A stretch of 64,000 bases of DNA from Streptococcus parasanguinis (GTDB taxonomy: Bacteria; Bacillota; Bacilli; Lactobacillales; Streptococcaceae). Location: NCBI RefSeq assembly GCF_031582885.1, contig NZ_CP133988.1:1495501-1559500 (forward strand), in the 5' to 3' direction. The notes under the pieces were generated by a model that saw only the letters and a program-made list of their open reading frames with translations, did no database searches and had not been told where the DNA came from. Position numbers and translations under genes: made by a program. Of this stretch, positions 28,024 to 33,772 are shown piece after piece; within the stretch, counting starts at the first letter, position 1; each line of letters opens with the position of its first letter.

Positions 28024-29400
28024 TTATTCAGCAGTTAAAGCTGCCATTGTAATGTAGTTGTAAGGTTTGTTGAAGTGTGGCAAGAAGAACAAGTCTGTCA
28101 AGGCCAATTTATCAATCGTTACGTGTTCTTGAATCGCAAGTGAGAACATGTGGATAGCCATTGAGATGGCGCTATCACGTGATACCATTTGAGCTCCAAG
28201 GATTTGACGAGTATCTTTATCATAGACGATCTTGATACCAACTTCGTGGTTATCGTGTTTGATAAATTCAGGTTTTTGAAGGTCGTTAAAGCCAGTTTCA
28301 GTGGCATTGAAGCCTGCAGCTTTCGCTTTTTCAAGAGTCAAACCAGTTGAAACCATGTGAAGGCCGTAGATAGAAATACCGTTAGAACCTTGAACACCGA
28401 TTCCCTCTAATTCATGACCAGTCGCATTGTAGGCACCAACAATACCTGAACGAACTGCATTAGATGCAAGAGCGATGTAGCTCATTTCGTTACGAGCGTT
28501 ATCGAAAATCGTCGCACAGTCACCAACTGCGTATACACCTGGAAGTGACGTTTCTTGTTTCTTATCAACAAGGAAGGCACCGTTGCGGAAGAGTTCGATC
28601 TTACCATCAGCAAGAGCTGTATTAGGACGGAAACCAACAGCCAAGATAACCATATCTACATCGAAGGTTTCTTTATCAGTTACAAGGCGTTCTACCTTAC
28701 CGTCTCCTTCAACCGCTTGAACAGTTTGTCCAAGTGCCAAACGGATGTTGTGGTCTTCCAAGTTTTTCGCCATGATGTCAGTGAAGTCTTTGTCGTAGTA
28801 ACCATTCAAAACAGTGTCCACGATATCCACCAAGACAACATCTTTACCAAGACGTTCGAAAGCTTCAGCAAGTTCAACACCGATGTAACCACCACCAACT
28901 ACGGCGATACGATTCAAGTGTTTGCTGTTGTCTTTCAATTTTTCGATCACTTCTTCAGCGTTTTGGTACAATTTAACGAATTGAAGATTTTCAAGAGTTG
29001 CTTTGAATTCGCGGTTACCAGGTACGATTTCAACTCCTTTAATTGGAGGAATGATTGGTGTTGATCCAGTCGCAAAGATCAATTTTTCGTAAGATTCTTT
29101 GTGTTCTTTTCCATCAACTTCCGCTGTTACCACTTTGTTGTCATAGTCAATTGAAAGAACAGGTGAGTTCATGTAGACTTTTGCACCTTTTGCTTCCAAT
29201 TTTTCTTTGTCAGAGTAGAAAAGACCTTCAGGACCATCGATTTGCTCACCGATCCAAAGCGCCATCCCACATCCAAGGAATGAAATGTTTGAGTTTTGGT
29301 CAAAAACTACAATTTCATTTTCATTTCCGAAATTATCTAACATAGTGTTGATACAAGCTGTTCCGGCATGGTTAGCCCCTACAACAACGATTTTACTCAT
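28024..29400 (-). CDS. nox: H2O-forming NADH oxidase
   Basis: A 458-residue flavoprotein that reduces O2 to water with NADH. FAD-binding [12 protein letters not shown] is at the N-terminus, the redox-active cysteine is C44 in FLGCGMALW, the NADH-binding [13 protein letters not shown] lies mid-protein, and the C-terminal dimerisation domain ends with [14 protein letters not shown]. It lets streptococci regenerate NAD+ in air and competes with lactate dehydrogenase (ldh at 58.5 kb). Its promoter shares a distinctive block with the divergent apbE promoter. The Rex repressor gene is at 53.1 kb. Confidence 0.97.
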
Positions 29401-29560: not shown

Positions 29561-29589
29561 TTGTGAAAACGATATCTTTTTGATATACT
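29561..29589 (+). promoter_or_regulatory. apbE operon promoter with the same block
   Basis: TTGTGA (29561-29566), a 17-bp spacer and TATACT (29584-29589). CGATATC, TTTTT and GATATACT appear as in the nox promoter, which points to one regulator for both. Confidence 0.7.
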
Positions 29590-29624
29590 GTAAGTAAGTG
29601 AAAATAGGAAAGGATAGATTTTTA

Positions 29625-30548
29625 GTGGACCTAAGTAGTCGATCCGAACGTTTGATGGGTACGACCATCACTGTTTCGATCTGTCACCCACAAGCGAATG
29701 AACTCTTAGCCCGCTGCTTTGAACTTCTTCGCTCCTACGAACATCGCTTCAGTGCTAATGATGCAAGTTCTGAACTCATGAAGGTCAATCACCAAGCTGG
29801 TATTGCTCCTGTCCAAGTACATCCAGATCTTTTTGAACTGATTGCATTAGGAACCTTGCATAGTCAAGCTCAGAACAGCCATTTAAACATCGCCATTGGT
29901 CCTCTTGTACAGACCTGGCGAATTGGATTTTCAGATGCTAGACGTCCCCAGCAAGGGGAAATTGATCAAGCTCTGGCCAAGATCGATCCTCACCAAATCC
30001 AGCTCGACCCAGAAAACCATACGGTCTTTCTGACACGTCCTGGAATGAAGATTGATTTAGGAGCCTTGGCTAAGGGTTATAGTGCAGACTGCATTGCGAC
30101 CTTTTTAAAGAGCCAGGGAGTAACAGATGCCTTGATTGATCTGGGAGGCAATATCCTCACTGTCGGTCAACACCCCATCAAACAACAACCTTGGCGGATT
30201 GGTATTCAAAATCCAGTCGAAAAAAGAGGCCAACACCTACTGGTCCTCTCAGTCAAGGATAAATCTGTTGTCACCTCTGGCATCTACGAGCGTCATTTAG
30301 AAGTTGACGGCCAGTCGTTTCACCATATCTTTGATAGCGCGACGGGCTATCCAGTTGAGACAGACTTAGCCAGTATCACCATCATATCTGATCGATCCGT
30401 AGACGGGGAGATATGGACTACCCGCTTGTTCGGGGAATCTCCTGCTTCTATCCTCAACACTGTTGAATCACTTCCTGGTATAGATACCTTATTGGTTTCT
30501 CAATCAGGCAAGATTGCCTATACAAGTGGGCTTCAATCTTATTTATAA
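29625..30548 (+). CDS. apbE: FAD:protein FMN transferase (ApbE family)
   Basis: A flavin transferase of about 307 residues that splits FAD and attaches FMN through a phosphoester bond to Ser or Thr in a (S/T)GA(S/T) motif of a target protein. Family motifs DLGALAKGYSAD, LIDLGGNI and TSGIYERH are present. It has no signal peptide or lipobox, so it should act in the cytosol. The start is uncertain: GTG at 29625 has a GGAAAGGA site 10 bases upstream and gives the usual short lead before LMGTTI; an in-frame GTG at 29598 would be nearly leaderless. Two flavin-reductase genes follow, and the second product carries two candidate target motifs. Confidence 0.92.
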   Translation: MDLSSRSERLMGTTITVSICHPQANELLARCFELLRSYEHRFSANDASSELMKVNHQAGIAPVQVHPDLFELIALGTLHSQAQNSHLNIAIGPLVQTWRIGFSDARRPQQGEIDQALAKIDPHQIQLDPENHTVFLTRPGMKIDLGALAKGYSADCIATFLKSQGVTDALIDLGGNILTVGQHPIKQQPWRIGIQNPVEKRGQHLLVLSVKDKSVVTSGIYERHLEVDGQSFHHIFDSATGYPVETDLASITIISDRSVDGEIWTTRLFGESPASILNTVESLPGIDTLLVSQSGKIAYTSGLQSYL

Positions 30549-30573
30549 TTCTCCTATCAGAAAGGAATTTTCC

Positions 30574-31179
30574 ATGATAAAACTTATTGCGATTGTGGGG
30601 ACTAACTCCAAACGTTCTACAAACCGTCAACTGCTTCAATACATGCAAAAACATTTTGCTGACAAGGCTGAGATCGAATTGGTCGAAATTAAAGATATCC
30701 CTGTCTTTAACAAACCAGCCGACAAACAAGTGCCTGAAGCTGTCTTAGAGATTGTTGCCAAAATTGAAGAAGCTGATGGGGTGATTATTGGGACTCCAGA
30801 ATACGACCACTCTATTCCAGCAGTCTTGATGAGTGCACTCGCTTGGCTCTCATACGGAGTCTTCCCATTGTTAAACAAACCGGTCATGATTACTGGGGCT
30901 TCATACGGTACGTTGGGATCTTCACGCGCCCAACTCCAACTTCGCCAAATCTTAAATGCTCCAGAAATCAAAGCAAATGTCTTGCCAGATGAATTCTTGC
31001 TCTCCCATTCATTGCAAGCCTTTGATCAAAATGGAGACTTGGTGGATTTAGATGTCATTCAAAAATTAGATGCCGTCTTCAATGATTTCCGTGTGTTTGT
31101 AAAAATCACAGACAAATTGCGCAACGCCCAAGAATTACTTCGCAAAGATGCTGAAGAATTTGACTGGGAAAACTTGTAA
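30574..31179 (+). CDS. NADPH-dependent FMN reductase
   Basis: A 201-residue flavodoxin-like reductase (FMN_red family). The N-terminal LIAIVGTNSKRSTNRQLL binds the FMN phosphate, and GTPEYDHSIPAVLMSALAW is the second flavin-contact region. It should reduce flavins or quinones with NAD(P)H. The start at 30574 has an AAAGGA site; the open frame upstream overlaps apbE and is not used. It is clearly paralogous to the first ~185 residues of the next protein (shared PVMI-GASY, SRAQ, LR-IL-AP, EFLL), so the pair arose by duplication followed by fusion. Confidence 0.88.
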   Translation: MIKLIAIVGTNSKRSTNRQLLQYMQKHFADKAEIELVEIKDIPVFNKPADKQVPEAVLEIVAKIEEADGVIIGTPEYDHSIPAVLMSALAWLSYGVFPLLNKPVMITGASYGTLGSSRAQLQLRQILNAPEIKANVLPDEFLLSHSLQAFDQNGDLVDLDVIQKLDAVFNDFRVFVKITDKLRNAQELLRKDAEEFDWENL

Positions 31180-31197
31180 GATAGGAGACAGAAAAGA

Positions 31198-32442
31198 ATG
31201 AAATTTGTTGGACTTGTAGGATCGAACTACGATCAATCATATAACCGTAAACTTTTGGAATTCATTCGCCGCCAATTTAAAATCAAATTTGAATTGGAAG
31301 TTCTTGAAATCGACGAAGTTCCAATGTTTAATCAAGATGAAAAATGGGACGAAAGTTTCCAATTGCGTCTTTTGTATAACAAAATCACTCGTGCAGATGG
31401 TGTTATCATTGCCACTCCAGAGCACAACCATACGATCTCTGCTGCTCTCAAGTCTGTTCTTGAATGGCTCTCTTTCGAGGTGCATCCATTTGAAAACAAA
31501 CCGGTTATGATCGTCGGTGCTTCTTACTATGATCAAGGGACTTCACGTGCGCAAGTTCACCTCCGTAAGATCCTCGATGCCCCAGGTGTCAATGCTTATA
31601 CCCTTCCAGGAAATGAATTCCTTCTTGGAAAAGCGAAAGAAGCTTTTGACGAAAACGGCAATATCATCAACGAGGGAACCGTCAAATTCCTTGAAACCTG
31701 CTTGGATAATTTTATGAAATACGTTGAGGTTGTATCTAAATTGAAAAAACCAAAACCAATTGAACCAGAAGACTTGGATTGTAATCATCCAATCGCTACA
31801 ACTGTTACTGAAGTCGATCCTGACGATCCAGATTGGGTAGAAAAAGTAGCTGAAATCACTGGTGCCGTTTCCGGCGATACCTATGTCAAACTCGACCACG
31901 GTATCCTAACCGTTAACCAAATTGATATGTTCTTAAAGGCTATGCCATTTGAATTGACCTATGCCGATGATAACAACCAATTCCTCTACTACAACAATGC
32001 CCATCAAGATCCTGATACCATGTTTGCCAAACGCGTGCCACCTCAATCAGGAAGCCGGATGTCAACCGTTCATGGTTCCCTACCACCAGCACGTATGAAA
32101 AACGTGGAATGGGTGATTGGTACCCTTCGTAACGGTAACCAAGACTATGTTCGGACTATTGTTCCAGGATCTCCTGAAGGCGTGATCAACACTCACAACT
32201 ACCAAGCTATGTACTATGAAGATGGTTCATACGCTGGTATCAATGAGATTGTCTTCAACTTCAAACCATGGTTGGACTGGTACCTGCAAACAACCGGCCA
32301 ACGTCTAGTTGGCGGAAGCGGTCCATTTGCTCCTGCTGGTGGACATGGTAGTACAGATGCAACTTCTGGCGCTTCTGATGCTGGAGGACATGGTGACGGA
32401 GGCCACGGAGATGCTGATGCCACTTCTGGTGCAAGCAACTAA
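31198..32442 (+). CDS. FMN reductase-PAS-like fusion with two flavinylation motifs
   Basis: A 414-residue cytosolic protein with three parts. Residues 1-185 are an NADPH-dependent FMN reductase domain like the preceding protein. Residues ~230-370 (DHGILTVNQIDMFLKAMPFE in the first part) resemble PAS_10/DUF438-type sensor domains. The tail (371-414) is Gly/His/Asp-rich and contains two identical DATSGAS motifs, at 387-393 and 407-413. (S/T)GA(S/T) is the ApbE flavinylation consensus and apbE is two genes upstream, so covalent FMN on the final Ser of each motif is the natural inference. It would act as a multi-flavin electron carrier; the terminal acceptor is unknown. A strong UUCG-loop terminator follows. 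Confidence 0.8.
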   Translation: MKFVGLVGSNYDQSYNRKLLEFIRRQFKIKFELEVLEIDEVPMFNQDEKWDESFQLRLLYNKITRADGVIIATPEHNHTISAALKSVLEWLSFEVHPFENKPVMIVGASYYDQGTSRAQVHLRKILDAPGVNAYTLPGNEFLLGKAKEAFDENGNIINEGTVKFLETCLDNFMKYVEVVSKLKKPKPIEPEDLDCNHPIATTVTEVDPDDPDWVEKVAEITGAVSGDTYVKLDHGILTVNQIDMFLKAMPFELTYADDNNQFLYYNNAHQDPDTMFAKRVPPQSGSRMSTVHGSLPPARMKNVEWVIGTLRNGNQDYVRTIVPGSPEGVINTHNYQAMYYEDGSYAGINEIVFNFKPWLDWYLQTTGQRLVGGSGPFAPAGGHGSTDATSGASDAGGHGDGGHGDADATSGASN

Positions 32443-32449
32443 GAAACTA

Positions 32450-32482
32450 GAAAAAAATGAAGCTTCGTGCTTCATTTTTTTA
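32450..32482. terminator. Bidirectional terminator between the flavin operon and the thioredoxin gene
   Basis: AAAAAAATGAAGC-TTCGT-GCTTCATTTTTTT. The A and T runs on both sides serve the plus-strand flavin operon and the minus-strand thioredoxin gene, whose stop overlaps the stem end. Confidence 0.9.
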
Positions 32483-33043
32483 TTGTAACTCCTTGATGAT
32501 CTTCTTAGCATCTTCGTTTGAAATAGCCCCTAATTGGACATGTCCAATTTTCCCATGACTGTCTATAAAGACTTCTGTAGGAATAGAGCGAACCTGATAA
32601 TCTGCAAATGCAGAACCATCTGGATTGTACAAGACCGGTACGGACTTGTAATCTTGTTGATCAAACCATTTGACGAATTCTTCTTCTGTTTTTTCACCTT
32701 GGAGTCCTGGTGCCATAACGGTCAGAATTTCAAAGTCTCTATCCGTATCCTTGACCAATTTCTCTAATTCAGGCATACTTTGCCGGCAAGGACCACACCA
32801 GGTTGCCCAAAATTTCAAGTAAACCTTTTTGCCTCTATAGTCTGAAAGTTTGACCGTATCCCCCTTCATATCCTTTAGTTCAAAGTCACTAGCGTCTCTT
32901 CCTACCAAAGGATTCTTATTCGTTGTTGTATTCATTGTTGGCTGATTGTCCATACTACTCTCACTGGATTGATTCATGGAACAAGCTGACAGCAAAGCTA
33001 AAGAGAGAACTGAGAAACAAGCGTATTTAAAACCTTTCATCAT
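32480..33043 (-). CDS. Extracytoplasmic thioredoxin-like lipoprotein (TlpA/Etrx type)
   Basis: A 187-residue TlpA-family lipoprotein. The lipobox is LLSAC with C21, followed by a Ser/Asn-rich linker. The thioredoxin domain carries the active site W82-CGPC (C83, C86). It keeps surface proteins such as methionine sulfoxide reductase reduced, with electrons from CcdA encoded 21 bp upstream. The pairing with ccdA matches the pneumococcal Etrx/CcdA modules, but no msrAB is adjacent here. A GGAGG site lies 8 bases before the ATG. Confidence 0.92.
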   Translation of the reverse strand: MMKGFKYACFSVLSLALLSACSMNQSSESSMDNQPTMNTTTNKNPLVGRDASDFELKDMKGDTVKLSDYRGKKVYLKFWATWCGPCRQSMPELEKLVKDTDRDFEILTVMAPGLQGEKTEEEFVKWFDQQDYKSVPVLYNPDGSAFADYQVRSIPTEVFIDSHGKIGHVQLGAISNEDAKKIIKELQ

Positions 33044-33064
33044 GCGTTAAACCTCCGGATTATT

Positions 33065-33772
33065 TTATGAAAAGATAGATGACAAACTGTTCAATTGTCC
33101 CAAAAGTAAGAGAATTCCCATCAGAATAATGATAGCTCCGCCGATTTTCTTCAGCAATAACAAATGGGGTTTGAGACGATTAAAGTAAGGTAGGACCAGA
33201 CTAGATGCTAAGGCCAAGAGTAAAAACGGAAGGGCCATTCCCAAGGTATAAACAAGGAGATAAATAGCTCCCATAAGAGCATCTTGCCCATCTGATGCTG
33301 CTAAAGCAAGGACTGATCCTAATACCGGACCAATACAAGGCGTCCAACCAAAACTAAAGCCAAGACCAAGGAGAAAAGCTGAAAACAATTCATTCTTCTG
33401 TTTGTTGGCTCCAAAATCTACTGATTTTTGCTTTTCAAGGAAATGAAAATGAAAGACTTCCATTTGATGAAGACCAAGGATAATGATGAGAGCTCCCATC
33501 AGATAACGGAACCAATTGGTGTACATGATCTTTCCAAGCAAGCCCGCTCCAAAACCAATGAGGAGGAAAATAACAGAAATACCTGCAATAAAACAAAGGG
33601 TTTTCAGCAAGCCATGCCAGCGAATTTTTTTCCCGAACAATCGGATAGCCTTTTCCTGATCACTTCCTAGCAAGATTCCAATATAAACCGGTAGCAAAGG
33701 AAAGACACAGGGAGAAAAGAAAGACAGAATACCCGCAAGAAAAACTGTCAATGAAAAAATGATTGGATTCAT
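33065..33772 (-). CDS. ccdA: Thiol-disulfide electron transporter CcdA
   Basis: A 235-residue CcdA/DsbD-core membrane protein with about six helices. The two redox cysteines lie in SPCVFPLLPVY and GWTPCIGPVLG. It passes reducing equivalents from cytosolic thioredoxin across the membrane to the lipoprotein encoded next. The two genes form a two-gene transcript with a GGAG site for ccdA. Confidence 0.93.
   Translation of the reverse strand: MNPIIFSLTVFLAGILSFFSPCVFPLLPVYIGILLGSDQEKAIRLFGKKIRWHGLLKTLCFIAGISVIFLLIGFGAGLLGKIMYTNWFRYLMGALIIILGLHQMEVFHFHFLEKQKSVDFGANKQKNELFSAFLLGLGFSFGWTPCIGPVLGSVLALAASDGQDALMGAIYLLVYTLGMALPFLLLALASSLVLPYFNRLKPHLLLLKKIGGAIIILMGILLLLGQLNSLSSIFS

Follow-up and report, generated by a model that had tools for sequence, protein, structure and literature searches.

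What does a streptococcal ApbE without a signal peptide modify in the cytosol, and what would covalent flavin on a disordered protein tail be used for? These questions are raised by three adjacent genes in a 64,000-nucleotide stretch of DNA (the window) from a Streptococcus genome of 2.14 Mb in a single contig. The original prediction, made from the sequence of the window, was that they encode a soluble NAD(P)H-dependent electron transfer chain with FMN attached covalently to a flexible tail. We compared this locus with its relatives in other genomes and with two published systems that it resembles.

A three-gene operon encodes ApbE and two FMN reductases

The genes, their domains and the flanking signals are as follows.

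29561..29589, + strand: promoter-like site, TTGTGA-17-TG-TATACT, just 5' of the operon
29598..30548, + strand: apbE, cytosolic-type FAD:protein FMN transferase (Pfam ApbE); likely start GTG 29625
30574..31179, + strand: small FMN reductase, 201 aa, tail-less, putative FRedA-like partner subunit (Pfam FMN_red, 8e-36)
31198..32442, + strand: FMN_red-PAS_10-tail fusion, 414 aa, putative FRedB-like subunit and predicted ApbE substrate
31198..31743, + strand: FMN_red (flavodoxin-like) domain of the fusion, residues 1-182 (Pfam 1-147, 8e-34)
31834..32313, + strand: PAS_10 region, residues 213-372 (Pfam 242-355, 8e-22)
32314..32439, + strand: disordered Gly/His/Asp tail, residues 373-414 (pLDDT below 50)
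32356..32376, + strand: first DATSGAS, residues 387-393, predicted flavinylation serine S393
32416..32436, + strand: second DATSGAS, residues 407-413, predicted flavinylation serine S413
32451..32481, strand not assigned: terminator-like hairpin between the operon and a convergent thioredoxin-like gene

The three genes form one operon, and the order apbE-small reductase-fusion was found again in several families. GTG 29625 is probably a better candidate for the apbE start than 29598: it is preceded by a good ribosome-binding sequence, AGGAAAGGA (29606-29614), and 29598 lies almost at the expected transcription start. Across the window, neither promoter-like nor terminator-like sequences were counted above chance; the position of the promoter-like site and its recurrence 5' of other streptococcal apbE genes are nevertheless suggestive. 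The hairpin was listed on the minus strand by the scan, but it is symmetric and has its T-run on the plus strand. For the pneumococcal homologues, SP_1470-1472, the open-access papers yielded an entry in a transcriptome table and nothing more.

Several further observations concern the surroundings of the operon. A cre-like (CcpA) sequence, TGAAAACGATATCT, at 29564-29577 coincides with part of the promoter-like site, and TGAAAACGNTNTC-like sequences also occur upstream of apbE in other streptococci; the cre-like count across the window is not above chance. A search for a Rex site 5' of apbE gave poor half-sites only and was dropped. The divergent neighbor (28024-29400, minus strand) is a water-forming NADH oxidase typical of streptococci (NCBIfam NOXase_Strep), which lies beside the operon in many of them; with a putative peroxide-forming NADH oxidase adjacent to it, this neighborhood is suggestive. 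On the other side, 32480-33772 adjoins the operon convergently and encodes a thioredoxin-like lipoprotein and a CcdA/DsbD-type membrane protein.

The window ApbE appears to have a single substrate

The product of the first gene is a clear ApbE (Pfam match 7.9e-78, 262 bits against a curated cut-off of 25.6). In an alignment with PDB 7esa, its R232 and H243 fall on the equivalent pair, the 11-residue spacing being kept. We take that structure to be FmnB, whose spacing it matches. The catalytic Arg/His pair of FmnB is R262/H273, 11 residues apart (PMC12052999). A simple hydropathy and lipobox scan detected no hydrophobic N-terminus or lipobox in the window ApbE or in any of 120 ApbE homologues linked to a fusion, which bears out, for ApbE, the earlier claim that signal peptides are absent.

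This is the only ApbE of the genome, in which we found no FMN_bind protein. In a genome-wide scan for the coding motif, the fusion was accompanied only by short spurious frames and by two small ORFs (116 and 132 aa) whose motifs are probably incidental. As the genome offers this lone ApbE neither an FMN_bind protein nor any other plausible target, the enzyme appears to have one substrate, the fusion. Two other roles were considered and rejected: extracytoplasmic electron transfer, for lack of signal peptides, and a fumarate reductase of the Klebsiella type, for lack of FMN_bind and FAD domains. Klebsiella pneumoniae does offer a precedent for a signal-less ApbE acting on a cytosolic flavoprotein, but there the target is a soluble fumarate reductase (reviewed in PMC12052999).

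The tail of the fusion carries conserved motifs and is linked to apbE

ORFs and Pfam upheld the predicted 414-residue fusion of an FMN reductase, a PAS_10 domain and a tail, and the proposed domain search of residues 230-370 returned PAS_10 (242-355, 8e-22); neither FMN_bind nor FAD_binding_2 was found in the protein by Pfam. In an AlphaFold model built with 48 sequences (mean pLDDT 82), the FMN_red and PAS domains are well folded and residues 373-414 disordered. Foldseek matched the FMN_red domain to 1rtt, ChrR and FerB, that is, to NAD(P)H:acceptor reductases of the ChrR/FerB type, and the PAS region to 2qkp, the C-terminal domain of S. mutans SMU_1151c. The genome has only one other PAS_10 protein, a DUF438-hemerythrin-PAS_10 protein (G000:C1:2036956-2037324; L177 2421-3767) that carries no ApbE motifs and is a domain relative of SMU_1151c.

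Both DATSGAS motifs lie where they had been predicted, with serines S393 and S413. At least two motifs arose in 2.5e-5 of composition shuffles of the 44-residue tail, and by this measure the pair is not due to chance. The two copies differ in their codons, so their identity is held at the protein level, without a recent DNA duplication.

We then compared fusion tails at 80 named genome loci and at another 60. Motifs (relaxed pattern) are present in every one of the 119 fusion orthologues examined: two in 86, three in 22, one in seven and four in four; a longer orthologue beyond these 119, at L165, carries seven. The last motif lies within five residues of the C-terminus in 116 of the 119. Around a retained motif, the linkers vary in length as well as sequence, and SSAS stands in place of SGAS in some genera. 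In Streptococcus sp. DD10 (L062), the motifs have become DATASAS and DATSSAS; this drift amounts to a natural experiment on what the motif requires. The proposed survey of co-occurrence gave an equally uniform result: among 298 genomes of the order, each of the 122 with a fusion also has apbE (Fisher 2e-8, shared ancestry ignored). In a genus sample of 147 genomes most have the fusion, and the three without any ApbE also lack it.

Flavinylation of such tails has a direct precedent. Huang et al. (2024) described FMN_red proteins with one to two ApbE motifs in a C-terminal extension; for two proteins from Lactococcus, flavinylation was proved with alanine mutants as controls (PMC11334425). The fusion likewise has a D-x-x-[ST]-G-A-[ST] C-terminal extension on an FMN_red domain and a linked apbE, as do those proteins of Lactococcus lactis and L. 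taiwanensis and their relatives, mostly in Firmicutes. Unlike them, it has a PAS_10 domain between reductase and tail and a dedicated small partner reductase, and its relatives carry up to seven motifs, against one to two in the Huang proteins. A text search of PMC11334425 found no mention of PAS. The prediction of a soluble chain whose flexible tail bears FMN agrees with all comparative tests: the motif persists amid variable linkers, no fusion was found without apbE, the tail is predicted to be disordered and Lactococcus relatives are flavinylated (PMC11334425). We regard flavinylation of the fusion tail as very likely.

The small reductase as a putative partner subunit

The two-subunit arrangement points to a second published system. 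In Lactobacillus johnsonii, FRedA and FRedB form an obligate heterodimer that oxidizes NADH, reduces FMN and yields H2O2; FMN is a substrate (Km 20 uM), a 28-kDa protein, LjPAS, acts as a modulator, and PAS-FMN reductase fusions are known in L. plantarum (Lp2732) and E. faecalis (EF1227) (Valladares et al. 2015, PMC4500961). Like that system, the operon has two consecutive FMN_red subunits and a PAS_10 domain. The L. johnsonii system differs in that PAS is a separate gene, and the paper does not mention tail motifs; a text search of PMC4500961 found no mention of ApbE or covalent flavin.

As had been predicted, apbE lies two genes upstream of the fusion, and the reductase between them is a paralogue of the fusion's N-terminus (42% identity). 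Paralogy stood; it does not describe the protein fully, and the small reductase is best read as a FRedA-like partner subunit. The FMN pockets of L. johnsonii are asymmetric, with Thr9/Asp75 in A and Ser9/Gln75 in B (PMC4500961). The small reductase has GTN and PEYDH, as in FRedA; the fusion has GSN, as FRedB does, but PEHNH where FRedB has PEQQH. The FRedA assignment of the small reductase draws on these signature residues and on modest identity (49 vs 42%).

When 106 FMN_red domains were placed in a tree, the small reductases separated from the N-domains of the fusions into a clade of their own, with strong support for the split (bootstraps not fully settled), while the g9 FRedA/B sequences described below sat on long branches and were loosely placed. 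The sister of each clade is the matching half of another pair, a small FMN_red with an FMN_red-FMN_bind-FAD_binding_2 protein, so the two-subunit design is older than both systems. By this tree the A/B pairing is old, and the design has been joined twice to ApbE-dependent flavins.

The larger proteins of that second pair (about 810 aa) occur in streptococci and relatives (e.g., L138 3626-6130) and are absent from the window genome. They share with the fusion an N-terminal FMN_red of the same clade, a small FMN_red partner and a feature of ApbE systems, here FMN_bind; they differ in that covalent FMN is expected in the folded FMN_bind domain, feeding an FAD reductase, and not in a tail. At both loci read (L138 3626-6699 and L143 5752-8843), reductases of ~810-835 aa adjoin a small FMN_red gene, and these pairs look like a parallel two-subunit ApbE-dependent flavoenzyme.

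Tail, PAS domain and reductase change places in other genera

The same parts are distributed differently elsewhere. In g9, a genus of another family that we infer to be Lactobacillus, two FMN_red genes without tails have the pocket residues published for L. johnsonii, and apbE lies 3' of this fredB/fredA pair, in the same orientation and separated from it by two genes. Here a separate PAS protein of 244 aa (28.0 kDa), the size of LjPAS, bears the motifs: its C-terminus has DATTGAT, DTATGAS and DTSSGAS. Some 10 kb from this LjPAS-like gene is a second PAS protein of 178 aa (L209 2214-2750) with one terminal DAESGAS. The layout is reversed in a genus that is probably Lactococcus-like (g81/g75): the tail is on the reductase and PAS_10, where present, is separate and motif-free.

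Homologues lacking both the tail and a linked apbE had been named as evidence against the original prediction. The split systems come close to this, since their reductases are tail-less, yet are not such a case: the tail has its place on the separate PAS protein, and apbE remains close by. That tail, PAS domain and reductase move between polypeptides yet stay with apbE is expected of the parts of one machine. This shuffling argues that the tail arms do more than tether one pocket FMN.

A proposed electron path and its alternatives

On balance, we favor a model in which the operon product is a soluble NADH:acceptor reductase, a heterodimer with flavinylated tail arms. The small reductase would pair with the fusion's FMN_red domain through the flavodoxin-fold interface, each half holding one noncovalent FMN, and ApbE would move FMN from FAD onto S393 and S413, in the disordered tail that follows the PAS domain. 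The pocket FMN would be reduced by NADH, and the tethered FMN arms beside PAS would take the electrons, replacing the free FMN acceptor used by FRedA/B in vitro. From the arms, electrons would pass to an acceptor, for which O2 (giving superoxide/H2O2) is plausible and, from the L. johnsonii relative, best documented; alternatively, another acceptor might dock at the PAS domain. Genes, domains, motif conservation, linkage and predicted disorder are established here for the locus itself. Relatives supply the precedents for the heterodimer, for its NADH oxidase activity and for flavinylated FMN_red tails. We infer flavinylation of the window fusion, electron flow to the arms and the acceptor.

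Covalent FMN could instead fill the normal FMN_red pocket, the tail preventing loss of a weakly bound cofactor. This was proposed by Huang et al. for the Lactococcus proteins, in which modelled tail sites lie near the pocket (PMC11334425), and it suits the weak FMN binding of FRedA/B (KD about 2 uM, partly empty on purification; PMC4500961). We consider it unlikely here: three or four motifs per tail are common and L165 has seven, too many for a dimer with two pockets, and in g9 the motifs are on the separate PAS protein and not on the reductases. The tail motifs being unused, the tail a low-complexity extension and ApbE serving another target, is highly improbable; modification of the fusion is a prediction, but the motif is conserved amid variable linkers, its two copies have diverged at synonymous positions, and ApbE co-occurs strictly with the fusion and has no other plausible target.

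The PAS-tail might also sense redox state or flavin, with the tail FMN as the sensing group, and so control how the reductase pair assembles or how active it is. The published data give this some footing: LjPAS preincubated with FRedB halved the rate, and the LjPAS gene is oxygen-responsive; since LjPAS slowed complex formation, regulation is suggested rather than electron carriage. The effect was gone, however, once the heterodimer had formed, and the LjPAS tested was probably devoid of covalent FMN, as we read it, having been made in E. coli without a cytosolic ApbE. An output domain is absent, and motif number varies widely. We rate a sensor as quite unlikely. A further point, besides the slowed complex formation, counts against our preferred model of tail arms as electron carriers: FRedA/B of L. 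johnsonii is active with no covalent flavin reported (PMC4500961), and in vitro NADH oxidation thus does not strictly require the arms.

Implications for lactic acid bacteria

It had been suggested that the combination may be little studied. Its halves are published, flavinylated FMN_red proteins in 2024 and FMN_red-PAS fusions and FRedA/FRedB-LjPAS in 2015, apparently unconnected; we found no paper in the open-access literature that joins ApbE flavinylation with the FRedA/FRedB-PAS system. The present analysis links the two, ApbE flavinylation of FMN reductases and the PAS-associated, H2O2-making reductase of L. johnsonii, and it gives a signal-less streptococcal ApbE one clear predicted substrate.

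A broader and more tentative proposal, to which we give somewhat less than even weight, concerns the PAS-tail module of lactic acid bacteria in both its forms, fused as in Streptococcus and Enterococcus-type systems or free as in the LjPAS type. This module would serve the NADH dehydrogenase FRedA/FRedB as a cytosolic electron carrier with several flavinylated arms; LjPAS would be an acceptor tested without its cofactor, and ApbE would control peroxide formation by these commensals. Collectively, the comparisons suggest that enzyme and cofactor attachment are one system, widespread in lactic acid bacteria. They predict that a widespread NADH oxidase of these bacteria would carry several covalent flavins, missed when the protein is made in E. 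coli, with relevance to peroxide production and NADH balance in oral and gut commensals.
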